Of a stretch of 64,000 bases of DNA, positions 18,865-54,893 are shown one piece after another. The notes below the pieces were generated by a model that searched no databases, was not told where the DNA came from, and saw nothing but the letters and a program-made list of their open reading frames with translations. Every line of letters begins with the position of its first letter. Position 1 is the first letter of the stretch. Source of the DNA: Microcella indica (GTDB lineage Bacteria; Actinomycetota; Actinomycetes; Actinomycetales; Microbacteriaceae); NCBI RefSeq assembly GCF_013414345.1, contig NZ_CP058670.1, positions 2,046,001 to 2,110,000 of the forward strand, written 5' to 3'. Both the position numbers and the translations under genes were made by a program.

Positions 18865-20042
18865 GCGACGTGCCCGGTCCCGAGATCGCCGTCGAGGTGA
18901 TCGTGCCGGTGCACGACCGCGCGCGGCCTCTCGCCCGCGCTGTCGCGTCCGTCACCGAGTCTGGTCTGCGTTGGGGCGACCAGATCGTCGTGACGGTCGT
19001 GGCCCACAACCTGCCGGTCGATGCCGCTGAGGACATGCTCGCCAGCGTGCCCACCGAGGCGGTCGTGACGGTACTCGCGTGCGATGACGGACTGCCGAGC
19101 CCGGCGGGCCCGCGCACTCTCGCGCTGGAGCGGTCGCGCGCGCGCTACGTGTCGTTCCTCGACTCCGACGACTGGCTCGAGCCCGGCGCCCTCGCGCACT
19201 GGCTGCGCCTCGCCGAGCGCCACGGCCTCGCCGCGGTCATCGCGCCCGAGCGCCACGCCTCCGGTCGCGCCGTGCTCAATCCGCCCGTGCGGCCGCTGCA
19301 CGCGGGCGCCCTGCACCCCCGTCACGACCGCCTGCCGTACCGCACGGCGCTGCGCGGTCTGCTCGAGCGCGAGGCGATTCTCGAGGAGGGCCTGCGCTTC
19401 AGCACGGGCGTGACGAACGGCTCCGACCAGCCCGTGAGCCTGGGGCTCTGGTTCTCGGGCCGCCCGGTGCGCTTCGCGAGCCGCGCCCCCGCCTACGTGC
19501 TCGGCGACGACGCGCCTAGCCGGGTCACACGAACGCCGCAGCCGCTCGACGCCGAGGTGGCGGCCTCGGCGCAGCTGCTGCGCGGCGCGTGGTTCCGCTC
19601 TCTCGCGCTCCGCGATCGGCAGCTCGTGGCGACGAAGATGGTGCGCATCCATCTGCTGCCGGGCCTCGCTCTGCGTGCACTCGACGTTCCGGACGATCGG
19701 GCCGCGCACGAGTGCGCGCACGCGGCAGCGTTCCTGCACCTCGCCCGCGACGCCGCGCCCGGTCTCGAGCGCTCCCTCTCGCGCTCCGACGAGAGCCTGG
19801 TCGAGCTTCTCCTCACACCCGAGCCCGACCTGGCGCGTGTGCGCGATCTGCTCGCGCAGCGCCGCCGCTTCACTCGCCCGTCGACGCTCCTGACGCGTCG
19901 CCTGGGCGGCACCCTGCGTCGGGATGCTCCCCTGAGGCTCGCGGCGGCGTCGGCCCTGCTGCCGCTGCGTCTGCGTCTGCGTCGGGCCGCTACGCGACCG
20001 AATCCCGACGGCACATCGACCGCACCGGCGTCTCGAGGGTGA
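18861..20042 (+). CDS. Glycosyltransferase family 2 protein
   Basis: A 393-residue protein from ATG 18861, overlapping the previous stop. The GT-A domain shows EVIVPVHDRARPLARAVAS, LACDDGLPSPAGPRTLALER and the metal-binding FLDSDDWLEPGAL. The C-terminal half (about 200-393) is Arg/Leu-rich, amphipathic and not recognisable; it could bind the membrane surface. The last 25 residues are Pro/Arg/Ser-rich and end next to the 23-nt repeat array, so the natural C-terminus may have been altered there. Sugar specificity is unknown. Confidence 0.75.
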   Translation: MSDVPGPEIAVEVIVPVHDRARPLARAVASVTESGLRWGDQIVVTVVAHNLPVDAAEDMLASVPTEAVVTVLACDDGLPSPAGPRTLALERSRARYVSFLDSDDWLEPGALAHWLRLAERHGLAAVIAPERHASGRAVLNPPVRPLHAGALHPRHDRLPYRTALRGLLEREAILEEGLRFSTGVTNGSDQPVSLGLWFSGRPVRFASRAPAYVLGDDAPSRVTRTPQPLDAEVAASAQLLRGAWFRSLALRDRQLVATKMVRIHLLPGLALRALDVPDDRAAHECAHAAAFLHLARDAAPGLERSLSRSDESLVELLLTPEPDLARVRDLLAQRRRFTRPSTLLTRRLGGTLRRDAPLRLAAASALLPLRLRLRRAATRPNPDGTSTAPASRG

Positions 20043-20054
20043 TGCGGGCGAAAA

Positions 20055-20138
20055 CGCAAAAGTGATGTCTGAGTACACGCAAAAGTGATATCCCAATCCG
20101 CGCAAAAGTGATATCTCAATCTACGCAAAAGTGATATC
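20055..20138. repeat. Four 15-nt direct repeats with exact 23-nt period at the ATPase promoter
   Basis: The unit CGCAAAAGTGATATC (first copy GATGTC) starts at 20055, 20078, 20101 and 20124, so the period is exactly 23 nt; spacers are 8 nt and differ. The array ends at the start of the ATPase gene, and the last copy contains the TATC of a TATCTT -10-like hexamer (20135-20140) placed 6 nt before ATG 20147. This looks like an operator or iteron array for an oligomeric DNA-binding protein. A CRISPR is ruled out by the short spacers. Confidence 0.85.
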
Positions 20139-20146
20139 TTGTGCTG

Positions 20147-21397
20147 ATGGTGGACTATCGCACTCGCATCATCGATGCTGCTGTCGAGCGAGCACTACAC
20201 ACATTCGGCGCCGTGATTCTCGAGGGCGCACGCGCGGTAGGCAAGACGACGACCGCCCTGCGACACTCGGCCAGCTCTGTGAGGCTCGACTCTTCGCCGG
20301 ATCTCCTCGAACTGGCTGAAGCGGCCCCAGAGACGGTGCTCCGAGGCGACACCCCCCGACTCATCGACGAGTGGCAGCTCGCGCCCGCAGTGTGGAACGC
20401 CGTTCGCCATGCCGTCGACGCTCGGGGTCGGTCTGGGCAGTTCATCCTGACCGGCTCCCAGACACCCGCTGACGATGTCACACGCCACAGTGGTGCTGGA
20501 CGGTTTCGCCGGTTGCGGCTGCGCCCTATGACCTTGAGCGAGAGCGGGGAGTCTCTCGCGTGCGTCGCGCTCGGGTCCCTCTTCGACGATGGCGAGATTT
20601 CCGGAATCGGCGGCCCGAGTGTCGACGACTACGCCCAGTTGATCGTTCGTGGCGGGTGGCCCGCCCTGGTCGAGCAGACCGAACGATCTGCGACCGAGTA
20701 TCTCGACGCCTACCTCGATGACATCACCCGGGTGGACATTCCGCTCTCCGGCGAGGGAGTCGATCCGCTGCGGATGCGCGCGCTCTTGCGTGCGATCGCT
20801 CGCAACGTCGCCACCGAGGCTCCAGCCGCGAGGCTCGCCGCCGAGGCGGAGATCGACGGCGGCTCGGTCTCGGCCCAGAGCGTGCGCAAGTATCTGGACG
20901 CGCTCGATCGAGTCGGGGTTCTGGAAGAGCTTCCCGCTTGGCGCCCTCACTTGCGATCGGCAGTTCGATTGCGGGTGAGGCCGACCTGGCACTTCGTCGA
21001 CCCGTCGCTCGCCGCGGTGGGTCTCGACGCATCGGCGACCACTCTGCTCGATGACCCCAGAACCCTCGGGTTCTTGTTCGAGTCGCTGGCGATTCGTGAT
21101 CTTCGCGTCTACGCCGAGACGATGGGCGGCACAGTGGGTCGATATCGCGACGAGCGCGGGCTCGAGGTAGACGCGATCATCGAACTGCCGAACGGTCGAT
21201 GGGCAGCGATCGAGATCAAGCTTGGCGGAGACACGGCAATCGAACGGGCTGCGACGAACCTTCAGCGCCTGGCGTCGCAGGTCAGCGTCGAACGAGCCAA
21301 GAGGCTCGCGGGTCTAGCGGTGATCACTGCTGGTACGACGAGCCTGCGTCGCCGTGACGGCGTCGCCGTCATCGCCCTCGGGCACTTGACCGCGTAG
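20147..21397 (+). CDS. AAA-family ATPase with C-terminal DUF4143 domain
   Basis: A 416-residue protein. It has an N-terminal AAA ATPase with Walker A GARAVGKTT (about 27-35) and Walker B-like PRLIDEWQ, then sensor-like FILTGSQ and RFRRLRLRPMTLSE. The C-terminal part is DUF4143, with YRDERGLEVDAIIELPNG and AIEIKLGG resembling a PD-(D/E)xK nuclease core (D...ExK). ATG 20147 sits 6 nt after a -10-like TATCTT, suggesting a leaderless message; GTG 20141 is an alternative. The role of these ATPases is unsettled; they are frequent mobile cargo. The 3' end overlaps the convergent gene by 84 nt, and composition is less GC-rich than its neighbours. Confidence 0.85.
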   Translation: MVDYRTRIIDAAVERALHTFGAVILEGARAVGKTTTALRHSASSVRLDSSPDLLELAEAAPETVLRGDTPRLIDEWQLAPAVWNAVRHAVDARGRSGQFILTGSQTPADDVTRHSGAGRFRRLRLRPMTLSESGESLACVALGSLFDDGEISGIGGPSVDDYAQLIVRGGWPALVEQTERSATEYLDAYLDDITRVDIPLSGEGVDPLRMRALLRAIARNVATEAPAARLAAEAEIDGGSVSAQSVRKYLDALDRVGVLEELPAWRPHLRSAVRLRVRPTWHFVDPSLAAVGLDASATTLLDDPRTLGFLFESLAIRDLRVYAETMGGTVGRYRDERGLEVDAIIELPNGRWAAIEIKLGGDTAIERAATNLQRLASQVSVERAKRLAGLAVITAGTTSLRRRDGVAVIALGHLTA

Positions 21398-22918
21398 AGC
21401 GGTCGCCGCAGGCCGCGTCAGCAGCGGCACCGCGAGACTGACGAGCAGCGCGAACGCGAGCGCGCCGAGCAGCCACACGGCGTTGGGCCCGACCGGCCCG
21501 GCCCACCACCACTCGGCACCCGCGCCGAGGTCGAACCCGGCGCCGTCGATGCCCGTGATGTAGCGCCGCATCGTGAGGTGCAGGGCCACGAAATGCGCCC
21601 CCGCAAGAGCTGCGCCGATGAGCCAGCCCTGCAGTCGCGAGATGCGCAGCGGTGCGCCCGTGCGGCTCAGCAGCAGGAGGCCCGCGAAGAGCACGATGAG
21701 CGGCAGGAGGTAGCGCGGCTGCACCTGCTGGCCCACGCGGTCACCGCCGGCCTGCAGCACGTAGAGCGGCAGGGCCACGAGCACGGCGCCGACGAGCAGC
21801 AGGGCGATCGCCCGGCGCCGCTCGACGCGGGCGAGGCCGACGAAGGCGAGCACGACGAAGACGCCGACGACGGCGAAGGACACGAGGGAGGGCATCTGCA
21901 CGTCGAGCCAGCCGAGGCCGCCCTCGGTGAGCAGGCCCGCCCACAGCGACGGCAGGTTGAGCACGTTGTAGGCGAGCAGCGCGGGGCCCGTGATGACGGC
22001 CTCGAGACCGCCGTCGTCTGCACCACCGGTGCCGGAGCCCGAGCCGCCCGCCCCGAACCCCTGCAGGCCGCTGCCGACCTGGCGCGAGGTGAGGAAGAGC
22101 GCGAGGGCGACGACGGCCATGACCGCGGGCAGCACGGCGAGCTTCGCATAGCGCCACGTCGGGGTGACGGTGAGCACGAACACGACGGCGATCGCGAGCC
22201 CCGCGTAGAGCGCAGCGTCGCCGCGCGAGCCGGCCGCGGCGAGAGTCGAGACGACGAAGACCGCGCCCAGGCCGATGCGCCGACGCCCCGTCGCCTCGAC
22301 GTAGCCGAGCAACGCGAGCCAGCTGCTGCCGACACCGATGATCGACCACGAACTGGGGTTGTTGGAGGCGAGCAGGAAGGTGCCGAGGGGCACCATCGTG
22401 GCGAGCCACGCCCACACGAGGGTCGTGCGGCGCTCGGGCAGCAGGCTCCACAGTGCGGCGCTGAGGCCGAGGAAGAGCGCGACGCTCAGCAGGCGCATGA
22501 GCAGCGCCGACACCTGGATGTCGCCCCCCGTGAGGAGCCCCGTGACGGCGTAGTAGACGGGCGGATACTCGCCGCTGAAGTTGCCGCGCCCGGTCTCGAC
22601 GGTCTCGCTCGTCGACCAGTCGAATTCCTCCCCCTGGCACGCGGCGCTCGCTTGCGGGTCGTAGGCGTAGCAGGCGATGTCGGTGAGCGCCTCAGGCACG
22701 ACGCGCTCGTCGGCGGCCTCTCCCGGCTCGCACAGCTCACCCGCGGCAGGCCCTGCGCACCACGAGCTCGTCAGGTGGTAGTCGTCGTCGGGCGAGGAGC
22801 CGATCGGCGAAGCGAAGGCCCAGGCCACGAGGGTGAGGGCGGCGAGCACGAGCAGCAGGAGCGGCCGACGACGCTCGACGAACTGCGACGCCGCCCGCGC
22901 GACCCCGCGCTCGCTCAC
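21314..22918 (-). CDS. DUF2142-like polytopic membrane protein
   Basis: A 534-residue membrane protein with about eleven hydrophobic segments. After the first helix comes a long extracytoplasmic loop, FASPIGSSPDDDYHL...CAGP, followed by GEYPPVYYAVTGLL, the combination seen in DUF2142 and related GT-C-like proteins of actinobacterial glycan loci. These may act as polyprenyl-phosphate-sugar dependent transferases on the outer membrane face. The last 28 residues are encoded on the strand opposite the ATPase 3' end and look like read-through rather than family sequence. ATGA overlaps with the upstream glycosyltransferase gene. Confidence 0.75.
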   Translation of the reverse strand: MSERGVARAASQFVERRRPLLLLVLAALTLVAWAFASPIGSSPDDDYHLTSSWCAGPAAGELCEPGEAADERVVPEALTDIACYAYDPQASAACQGEEFDWSTSETVETGRGNFSGEYPPVYYAVTGLLTGGDIQVSALLMRLLSVALFLGLSAALWSLLPERRTTLVWAWLATMVPLGTFLLASNNPSSWSIIGVGSSWLALLGYVEATGRRRIGLGAVFVVSTLAAAGSRGDAALYAGLAIAVVFVLTVTPTWRYAKLAVLPAVMAVVALALFLTSRQVGSGLQGFGAGGSGSGTGGADDGGLEAVITGPALLAYNVLNLPSLWAGLLTEGGLGWLDVQMPSLVSFAVVGVFVVLAFVGLARVERRRAIALLLVGAVLVALPLYVLQAGGDRVGQQVQPRYLLPLIVLFAGLLLLSRTGAPLRISRLQGWLIGAALAGAHFVALHLTMRRYITGIDGAGFDLGAGAEWWWAGPVGPNAVWLLGALAFALLVSLAVPLLTRPAATALRGQVPEGDDGDAVTATQARRTSSDHR

Positions 22919-53057: not shown

Positions 53058-53522
53058 ATGCCGATACTGGTGGGCCAACTCGCCCGATTCGGGGCGGTCG
53101 GGATCGTCGGGCTCATCGTCGACATCGCGCTGTTCAACCTGCTGCGCGTCACCGTGCTCAGCCCCGAGGTCATCGCCGAAGGCCCCGTCATCGCGAAAGT
53201 GATCTCCACCTCGGTGGCGATCGCCGTCAACTGGATCGGCAGCCGCTACTGGAGCTTCCGCCTCGAACGGCGTCGGCCCGCGATGCGCGAGAGCCTCGAA
53301 TTCGCGCTCGTGAGCGTCGGAGGACTGCTCATCGCCGTCGGGTGCCTCGTCGTCTCACGCTACGTGCTCGGCTACACGAGCCTGCTCGCCGACAACATCG
53401 CCTCGAACGTCATCGGGCTCGCGCTCGGCAGCGCCTTCCGCTTCGTGCTCTACCGCACGTGGGTGTTCGACCCGCGGCGCCCCGTGGCCCGGCCAGCGGC
53501 ACCCGAGCACGAGGCCGTGTAG
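53058..53522 (+). CDS. GtrA-family membrane protein
   Basis: A 154-residue protein with four hydrophobic helices: QLARFGAVGIVGLIVDIALF, VAIAVNWIGSRYWSFRLERR, ALVSVGGLLIAVGCLVVSRY and ASNVIGLALGSAFRFVLYR. The pattern RYWSFR and FxxYRTWVF is typical of GtrA/DPMS, small proteins proposed to flip polyprenyl-phosphate sugars. It is 79 nt from divergent purK, a neighbourhood common in actinobacteria. It may serve the glycan locus on the other side of the purine genes. Confidence 0.85.
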   Translation: MPILVGQLARFGAVGIVGLIVDIALFNLLRVTVLSPEVIAEGPVIAKVISTSVAIAVNWIGSRYWSFRLERRRPAMRESLEFALVSVGGLLIAVGCLVVSRYVLGYTSLLADNIASNVIGLALGSAFRFVLYRTWVFDPRRPVARPAAPEHEAV

Positions 53523-53532
53523 CCACCCTGGG

Positions 53533-53607
53533 CCAGGCGCGGGGCGGCCGGGCGCGGGGCGGCCAGGCGCGGGGCGGCCAGGCGCGGGGCGGCCGCGCTA
53601 GGGGCGG
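53533..53607. repeat. Five 15-nt tandem repeats at the end of ugd
   Basis: CCAGGCGCGGGGCGG at 53533-53547 is repeated with small changes at 53548, 53563, 53578 and, more diverged, at 53593-53607. The last unit contains the ugd stop codon and encodes its final Gly-Arg-Pro. The array fills the 75-nt gap between the gtrA-like gene and ugd; it looks like tandem amplification of the ugd 3' end. Confidence 0.8.
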
Positions 53608-54893
53608 CCGAGACCCGCGTAGGTCCAGCCGGCCGAGCGCCAGTTCGACGCGTCCAAGCAGTTGCGACCGTCGACGACGATGCGCCCCCGCGCCCACCCC
53701 GCGACCTCGACCGGGTCGAGTTCACGGAACTGGTGCCACTCCGTCACGACGACGATCGCGTCGGCGCCCGAGACCGCCTCCTGGATGCTCTCCACGTAGT
53801 CGAGGTGCGGACGAATGCGGCGCGCCGTCTCGATCGCCTCCGGGTCGGTGGCTCGCACGACCGCGCCCGCGTCGACCAGCCGCTGCGCCACATCCAGGGC
53901 GGGCGAGTCGCGCACGTCGTCCGACTCGGGCTTGAACGCCAAGCCCAGCACGGTGACGGCCTTGCCCGTGAGGTCGCCCCCGAGGTTCTCGGTGACGAGG
54001 TCGACGACTCGCTGACGGCGGCGCAGGTTCACGTCATCGACGTCGGCGAGGAAGGCGAGCGAGTGGCCGACGCCGAGCTCCTCGGCGCGCGCCTGGAACG
54101 CACGGATGTCCTTCGGCAGACACCCGCCGCCGAAACCGACACCGGCGTTGAGGAAGCGGCGACCGATGCGGGCGTCGTAGCCGATCGCGTCGGCGAGCGT
54201 CGTGACATCCGCACCCGTGACCTCGGCGATCTCCGCCATCGCGTTGATGAACGAGATCTTCGTGGCGAGGAACGCGTTCGCCGAGACCTTCACGAGCTCG
54301 GCGGTCGCGTAGTCGGTGACGATGCGCGGCGTGCCCGCCTCGAGCGGGCGCTTGTAGATCTCATCGAGCACTTCGGCCGCGCGATCGTCACGGTTGTCGA
54401 CACCGTAGACGAGACGATCGGGCGAGAGCGTGTCGGAGACCGCGAAGCCCTCGCGCAGGAACTCGGGGTTCCAGGCGAGGCTCGCCCCCGTCGGCGCGAC
54501 GAGCTCCGCGAGCCGAGCAGCGGTGCCGACCGGCACGGTCGACTTGCCGACGACGAGGTGGCCGGGGCCGATGTGCGGCAGAAGCGCCTCGACCGCCGCA
54601 TTGACGTAGGTCAGGTCTGCTGCGACGCCGCCCGCCACCTGCGGAGTGCCGACGGCGATGAAGTGCACGCGCGCGTGCTCAGCGGCCGCGATGTCGGTCG
54701 TGAACCGCAGGCGAGCGTTGTCGGGCGACAGCAGTTCGCCGAGCCCCGGCTCGAAGAACGGAGCACGCCCCGCCGACAGGTTCTCGATCTTGCTCTCATC
54801 GACGTCGATTCCGACGACGTCGTGGCCGAGCTCGGCCATGCAGGCGGCGTGAACCGCACCCAGGTATCCGCATCCGATGACTGAAATTCGCAC
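53598..54893 (-). CDS. ugd: UDP-glucose 6-dehydrogenase
   Basis: A 431-residue enzyme oxidising UDP-glucose to UDP-glucuronate with NAD+. The Rossmann motif GCGYLG is at 7-12 and FFEPGLGELL at about 46-55; STVPVGTA is at 118-125. The active site has Lys202 and Asn206 (VKVSANAF), and the catalytic Cys258 is in GVGFGGGCLPKD. The C-terminal UDP-binding domain contains VTVLGLAFKPESDDVRDSPA. Length is normal. It supplies uronic acid for the surface polymer, or a precursor for further sugars. Confidence 0.95.
   Translation of the reverse strand: MRISVIGCGYLGAVHAACMAELGHDVVGIDVDESKIENLSAGRAPFFEPGLGELLSPDNARLRFTTDIAAAEHARVHFIAVGTPQVAGGVAADLTYVNAAVEALLPHIGPGHLVVGKSTVPVGTAARLAELVAPTGASLAWNPEFLREGFAVSDTLSPDRLVYGVDNRDDRAAEVLDEIYKRPLEAGTPRIVTDYATAELVKVSANAFLATKISFINAMAEIAEVTGADVTTLADAIGYDARIGRRFLNAGVGFGGGCLPKDIRAFQARAEELGVGHSLAFLADVDDVNLRRRQRVVDLVTENLGGDLTGKAVTVLGLAFKPESDDVRDSPALDVAQRLVDAGAVVRATDPEAIETARRIRPHLDYVESIQEAVSGADAIVVVTEWHQFRELDPVEVAGWARGRIVVDGRNCLDASNWRSAGWTYAGLGRP

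Follow-up and report, generated by a model that had tools for sequence, protein, structure and literature searches.

A repeat array of exact 23-nucleotide period as a candidate private operator of PDC-S01-type ATPases

Self-regulating operator arrays are a known kind of element, and the iteron arrays of plasmid replication initiators are direct repeats at the initiator's own gene that serve its self-regulation. Orc1/Cdc6 proteins bind origin recognition boxes, and the sites of MalT serve other genes. Here we describe an array of direct repeats in front of an ATPase gene of the PDC-S01 type in Microcella indica (contig NZ_CP058670.1, positions 2,046,001 to 2,110,000; this whole stretch of 64,000 nucleotides is called the window below). 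A period of exactly 23 nucleotides (nt) recurs in front of most of the closer homologues of this gene, and we consider it probable (roughly 0.7) that the array is a private operator of the ATPase encoded behind it, which would bind its own array and control its own promoter.

PDC-S01 combines an AAA_14 ATPase with a DUF4143 region. It is reported to be the fourth most common prokaryotic defence system (29,494 bacterial and 9,986 archaeal detections), to have the fold class PD-(D/E)XK, and to be one of a set of PDC candidates for most of which validation is pending (PMC12988326); it is also named in PMC13356809, a DUF4143 protein, TT_P0211, is placed beside a CRISPR locus (PMC4406477), and COG1373 or PF13173 is named in PMC10782964 and PMC2635572. 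Titles and the beginnings of abstracts in the open-access literature, as distinct from subscription papers and preprints, yielded nothing on such arrays, and the corresponding texts on PDC-S01 make no mention of an upstream array; the identifier PF13635 was not found in the open-access literature searched.

The array in the window and among relatives

The array lies between the 3′ end of an open reading frame (ORF) that ends at 20042, which judging by its residues we take to encode a glycosyltransferase, and the start of the ATPase gene. Four repeats at 20055, 20078, 20101 and 20124 had been described in the original prediction; their spacing of 23, 23 and 23 nt (a 15-nt core with 8-nt spacers) holds, and the unit CGCAAAAGTGATATC is exact in the last three, whereas the first differs from it by one base, a point that the original prediction does not mention. 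The last unit overlaps the sequence TATCTT, which does end 6 nt before the ATG at 20147, as had been stated. From this spacing and these letters, the window promoter is probably leaderless, with TATCTT as its -10 element. The elements are as follows.

20032 to 20046, forward strand: stretch one period upstream of unit 1, compatible with a decayed outermost unit (8/15 bases)
20055 to 20069, forward strand: unit 1, CGCAAAAGTGATGTC (14/15 bases)
20078 to 20092, forward strand: unit 2, exact (15/15 bases)
20101 to 20115, forward strand: unit 3, exact (15/15 bases)
20124 to 20138, forward strand: unit 4, exact (15/15 bases), overlapping the -10-like element, with the ATG 23 nt after its start
20135 to 20140, forward strand: -10-like TATCTT of the putative leaderless start

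At up to three mismatches the unit occurs five times in the window, compared with a mean of 0.35 and a maximum of 2 in 100 dinucleotide-preserving shuffles. Across the 2.585-megabase genome, a 14-mer search at up to two mismatches returns the four array units and one further site, and nothing else. This sole other copy, at window positions 53192-53206, is CGCGAAAGTGATCTC, with two mismatches.

Homologues were collected by protein similarity to the window gene, independently of arrays. Within the family, 34 of 299 genomes contain a match to the ATPase (own genome included), and relatives occur in many phyla, where the best 80 of at least 439 confirmed stretches were kept. Thirty loci from more remote groups (L116 to L145) are the best DUF4143 places from 198 genomes of the phylum, 72 of which have a match. 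After removal of one repeated locus, two genes without a Walker A match and one identical protein, 198 profile hits left 194 distinct genes, open frames shorter than 340 amino acids being left out. All were scored against a profile made from the window protein's close relatives, and genes scoring at least 350 are called closer homologues; this set of 131 leans to close relatives. Phyla were assigned by hand from record titles.

Among the 131 closer homologues, window gene included, an array with a period of exactly 23 nt at p ≤ 0.01 lies just upstream in 121, and 23 is the best period in 126 regardless of p. The original prediction would have been refuted by a lack of repeats in front of orthologs, and the outcome is the opposite. 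Such arrays occur in Actinomycetota (58/64), Bacillota (33/35), Bacteroidota (11/11), Spirochaetota (6/6), the PVC group (3/3), Pseudomonadota (3/4), archaea (2/2), Chlorobiota (1/1) and genes with no assigned phylum (4/4), and in none of one gene from Patescibacteria. They contain 2 to 9 units, mostly 3 or 4. At the same threshold, 30 genes scoring 255 to 350 have period 23 in 9 cases and period 22 in 11 (L033, L125, L131, L142, L162, L191, L192, L194, L196, L205 and L206), and the 33 remote DUF4143 genes scoring below 255 have arrays in four, two of each period. The period-22 relatives would allow two spacings of one kind of array to be compared. On a FastTree protein tree, the array state requires 25 changes (mean of 53 and minimum of 45 in 200 label shuffles).

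A first repeat test covered periods 17 to 30 with 200 dinucleotide-preserving shuffles. Of 141 distinct genes, three had too short a stretch of DNA in front of them; of the remaining 138 upstream regions, 108 passed p ≤ 0.005, with period 23 in 100, 22 in six, 24 in one and 26 in one. At this threshold, control regions passed in 6 of 133 cases far upstream, 5 of 139 downstream and 4 of 141 inside the gene, with no period in common. Near-identical proteins were counted singly, and the 100 period-23 arrays that entered the covariation analysis correspond to an effective n of about 63 at 70% identity. Upstream of other ORFs in 72 loci, which are mechanical predictions rather than confirmed genes, 13 of 183 regions passed p ≤ 0.01, one with period 23; about 7% of ordinary upstream regions pass this threshold, so what carries the argument is that the arrays agree on period 23. 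A 14th positive among what were then 184 control ORFs proved to be L057; as a shortened relative whose array is of the window type, it was removed from the controls.

The same rule extends to mobile records. Relatives were found on 207 plasmid records, and 13 plasmid or phage records, opened out of 35 rows listed after the period rule was seen and all within the 194 genes, gave significant arrays (p ≤ 0.01) in 12, with period 23 in 10 and period 22 in two; the 13th, from Actinomyces oris (L203, NZ_CP116225.1), has period 23 at p 0.022. Array-bearing plasmids include those of Bacteroides, Prosthecochloris, Sphingomonas, Rhizobium, Lentilactobacillus, Mycobacterium riyadhense and Collinsella. 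As separate observations, the ATPase L057 (Crocinitomicaceae, JAMLHA010000002.1, upstream of position 2501), excluded from the 194 genes by its length, is shortened (residues 3-321 matched) and keeps a window-type period-23 array; two genomes of the same phylum as the window, G440 and G353, have 17 and 14 DUF4143 matches, and 2 of 13 further copies fetched from G440 (L166 and L174) have a significant 23-nt array.

Unit letters, protein and promoter

The letters of the unit vary by clade and go with the ATPase, not with the host. Array similarity tracks protein identity (Mantel r 0.69, reached by none of 2000 permutations), also with array G+C removed (r 0.68) and among cross-phylum pairs alone (r 0.52; 3461 pairs, unpermuted). 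The window array is closest to those of two Bacteroidota, L046 and L045, whose ATPases are 52% and 53% identical to it, and several ATPases of its own family (41-49% identity) have quite different arrays, that of L011 (45%) being rather similar. Paralogues within each of three genomes (G151, G199 and G247) have differing arrays, as judged by eye. The units are also private: in the window genome, G178, G199 and G472, the native unit at up to one or two mismatches occurs only at its own gene, save for the two-mismatch site in the window genome, and a unit of G199 has one 1-mismatch match in G472.

Within this variation, the units share an orientation and an edge. A common orientation holds in 86 of 100 arrays, and the GCAAA-like edge carries 6.68 bits, where 50 null sets reached 4.22 at most, although some unit registers in the edge alignment look wrong by eye (e.g., L017, L020 and L123). 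Average palindromicity (0.346, versus 0.323 after column shuffling) shows no excess; the units of L076 and L115 are among the few fairly symmetric ones. A relative's array of another type, that of L085, has GACAAATCACCGGTT.

Pfam finds AAA_14 and DUF4143 alone in the window protein, over curated cut-offs (46.3 bits, cut-off 27, and 94.1 bits, cut-off 28.1), and the PADLOC model of PDC-S01, PDLC04790, matches it (E 5.4e-67) as well as 99 of 99 aligned family members; both resources annotate an ATPase of unknown function. NCBIfam gave no match for the window protein, and in PHROGs two weak matches (E about 0.1) fall within the predicted winged helix, one of them named transcriptional regulator. 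Residues G27, G32, K33, D74, E75, D342 and E356, to which we assign the names Walker A, Walker B and D-ExK, are invariant in 99 sequences, as are E312 and E340, and K358 is present in at least 90%. An AlphaFold2 model built from these sequences (mean pLDDT 95.6) shows an AAA part, then a region of three helices and two strands (residues 205-285), then a PD-(D/E)XK-type domain; from the order of its elements, we read the middle region as a winged helix.

20147 to 21397, forward strand: gene of the AAA_14-DUF4143 ATPase (PADLOC PDC-S01 model PDLC04790), 416 amino acids from the ATG at 20147 or 418 from the GTG at 20141
20759 to 21001, forward strand: predicted winged-helix region, residues 205-285 from the ATG at 20147, with helices 207-219, 227-233 and 243-255 and strands 259-262 and 280-283 (AlphaFold2)
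20873 to 20911, forward strand: presumed recognition helix, residues 243-255; an exploratory test gave covariation of its residue Q244 with bases 11 and 12 of the unit
21056 to 21376, forward strand: PD-(D/E)XK-type region of DUF4143, with E356-I-K358 encoded at 21212-21220 (conservation and AlphaFold2)

Foldseek neighbours of the model are an archaeal Walker-type ATPase (2qen, E 6.9e-6), Cdc6/Orc1 on origin DNA (2qby_B, E 1.1e-4), the maltose-system entry 8bob_C (E 5.7e-4), which we take to be MalT, SAMD9 and NLR proteins; with low query TM-scores of about 0.2 to 0.44, these neighbours indicate class rather than close kinship. A sequence-profile search of the PDB gave one weak match, Rix7 (E 0.0069).

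Covariation between residues and unit bases points weakly to the winged helix, which makes up 85 of 413 columns and contributes 34 of the top 100 base-residue pairs (binomial value 0.0012, which disregards dependence among pairs). In this test, the second of two, Q244, with which the presumed recognition helix nearly begins, pairs with unit bases 11 and 12; in the first test it ranks second, below the 95% limit. Before the second test, 12 of 100 arrays had been dropped because they did not combine C or T at position 3 with A at position 5. A residue-base code was tried twice, and the signal, suggestive for the winged helix, was too weak to name one.

The arrays also tend to keep a fixed phase to predicted promoters, in two recurrent arrangements. 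The last unit begins 20-26 nt ahead of the start codon in 17 of 43 arrays from actinobacteria, that of the window among them, and several (e.g., L024, L028 and L044) have a -10-like TATAAT or TATAGT within this unit. In Bacillota, the array lies mostly upstream of a well-scoring predicted promoter, and for 21 of the 26 promoters scoring at least 8 the -35 box begins 19-20 nt downstream of the last-unit start. A promoter scan covered 79 arrays, the leaders of the others, the window's among them, being too short; where at least 60 nt separate the last unit from the start codon, the best -35 lies 19-21 nt after the last-unit start in 29 of 51, compared with 8.5% of shuffled leaders. Predicted promoters scored at least 8 in 37 of the 79 scanned arrays, and 33 of these 37 have their -10 at array phase 19-22. 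Both boxes stand in phase with the array because the distance from -35 to -10, 6 + 17 = 23 nt, equals the period.

Taken as a mechanism, these features suggest that the winged helix of the ATPase would bind each asymmetric unit of about 15 base pairs (bp), with copies of the protein stacked head to tail in 23-bp steps to control their own promoter. Because the units are asymmetric on average and in direct orientation, the simplest arrangement would place a single protomer on each of them, head to tail; a step of 23 bp, or about 2.2 turns of B-DNA, would make the protomers wind around the helix. In the window, where the last unit lies over the -10-like element, binding would most likely repress by blocking RNA polymerase; in the arrays of Bacillota, activation may occur too. 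Array and ATPase would be inherited and transferred as one module, in which unit letters and protein change together.

Locus context and competing explanations

In the window, this module stands singly between chromosomal genes. In the related genome G507, similar flanks (about 70% and 73% DNA identity) enclose a different gene, presumably one resembling a cell-wall-binding-repeat protein, and G507, which is 81% complete, has no match to the ATPase. Homology to G507 stops at window position 19951 and resumes at 21423, without fixing the ends of the module; this comparison suggests that array and ATPase arrived without other genes. The comparison with 20 further genomes of this genus shows the same ATPase in G235, and four of the other 19 have different relatives elsewhere. 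An insertion site was considered and set aside: the G507 flanks hold another gene, and the close relative G235 has the same module and no empty site. Phage origin was likewise rejected, with no relative of the ATPase in a viral contig collection and no exact match there to two array motifs; five faecal scaffolds labelled Bacteriophage sp. hold relatives, and three that were opened, marked unverified, have period-23 arrays.

Around the gene and its relatives we also note the following. At 21314-21397, the ATPase gene and a membrane-protein-like ORF on the antisense strand (21314-22918) overlap with their 3′ ends, and the similar ORF in G507 has a different end. A GC-rich tandem repeat (15 nt, 5.3 copies) lies at window positions 53531-53609. 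On the A. oris plasmid (L203, NZ_CP116225.1), the ATPase gene adjoins cas3 of a type I-U CRISPR system.

Several results weigh against an operator read by its own ATPase. Ten of the 131 closer homologues lack a significant period-23 array; only one column (N222, numbered from the GTG) exceeds the 95% permutation limit in the first column-level test, and 66 of the top 100 covarying pairs fall outside the winged helix. On the promoter side, 42 of the 79 scanned promoters score below 8, and the -10 phase count has no null of its own. Since Bacillota supply 26 of the 37 promoters scoring at least 8, the phase rule derives mostly from this group, and shared descent contributes too; the array in Bacillota precedes the predicted -35 box, a placement that would suit activation as well as repression. 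Helix-turn-helix regulators also occur beside the ATPase, just upstream as small genes in two Collinsella aerofaciens plasmids (L199 and L211) and downstream in a Lentilactobacillus hilgardii plasmid (L204).

The alternative that survives best makes the array a parking site or lock, on which ATPase-nuclease copies would form an inactive head-to-tail filament; loss of this state, for example to competing invader DNA, would release the nuclease, and transcription control would be secondary. The number of units at fixed spacing, the STAND- and Orc-like structural neighbours and the conserved nuclease-type motif would suit such a lock, whereas the promoter phase indicates transcription control and both oligomers and nuclease activity are postulated, and we hold this explanation to be unlikely. 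A defence role of the ATPase is itself presumed; for such a nuclease with three or four sites instead of one, a lock or sensor would be the bold reading. In its fullest form, which we offer as a speculative extension with the odds against it, each ATPase-nuclease would be held head to tail on a private 23-bp array read by its winged helix, the conserved edge and variable core would form an evolvable recognition code that avoids cross-talk among copies, and disturbance of the array-bound state would free the nuclease.

Binding of the array by a host or neighbouring transcription factor instead of the ATPase seems to us quite improbable. The promoter phase alone would suit any regulator, and the helix-turn-helix genes on the three plasmids could encode one; set against this are the agreement of unit letters with the ATPase across phyla, the differing arrays of paralogues in one genome, and the privacy of the native unit in four genomes, the single two-mismatch site aside. 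A dedicated regulator would moreover have to travel with each ATPase, and no gene product recurs beside it in all 10 annotated plasmid stretches opened.

We judge it very unlikely that the repeats serve as replication-origin iterons or mark a place of insertion or recombination; insertion and replication had also been raised in the original prediction. Direct repeats beside an ATPase gene, the Cdc6/Orc1 structural neighbour and the plasmid-borne relatives recall iterons; yet the window module is a single one among chromosomal genes, the G507 flanks enclose a different gene, the ATPase matches no replication-initiator family (neighbouring genes lay outside this search), arrays are not enriched downstream (5/139), and the unit recurs only at the one two-mismatch site. 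This part of the prediction gains no support, and its proposal that the ATPase binds the array and regulates itself is partly supported by the covariation of array and ATPase, the private sites and the promoter phase, with binding still a deduction from these.

An RNA-level element, either a CRISPR-like array or a leader attenuator, has an equally slight chance. Repeats with variable spacers, and two relatives near CRISPR loci (L203 and, in PMC4406477, TT_P0211), might recall CRISPR, but the 8-nt spacers fall well short of the 15-nt core, where CRISPR spacers are about as long as the repeat, and the 23-nt period is fixed; in Bacillota, moreover, the array lies mostly upstream of the predicted promoter and thus outside the mRNA, and the putative leaderless transcript of the window would begin after it. 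Neutral tandem repeats kept by chance can practically be dismissed, since, for all the weak tandem repeats in the window (105 rows), the controls contradict them with one period, 23, before one gene family and not before other predicted ORFs nearby.

Comparison with known systems

The private-operator reading, if true, gives a concrete handle on what PDC-S01 proteins bind: for most closer members, about 200 nt of sequence upstream of the gene would reveal the DNA target, and the family would supply a set of mutually different protein-operator pairs. Within the open-access literature searched, a one-period rule across the family, with private and covarying letters, appears to be new for so common an ATPase-nuclease. 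The window protein is a member of PDC-S01 by its match to PDLC04790, and within the DUF4143 family at large such arrays are confined to a part.

Like the iterons of plasmid Rep proteins, the window array consists of short direct repeats at fixed spacing beside the gene of the presumed binder, with self-regulation as the likely outcome; it differs in that the ATPase has no Rep match, that the presumed binder has the order AAA, winged helix and PD-(D/E)XK, and that the locus is chromosomal. With Orc1/Cdc6, the window protein shares an AAA ATPase followed by a putative DNA-binding winged helix, a likeness of class given the query TM-score of only 0.20 for 2qby_B; its family adds a nuclease-type domain, a head-to-tail 23-bp promoter array and letters that vary by clade. 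MalT-like STAND regulators, represented among the structural neighbours by 8bob_C, resemble it in combining a STAND-type ATPase with promoter repeats, and differ in that the sites of the window family are private to their own gene in the four genomes tested.
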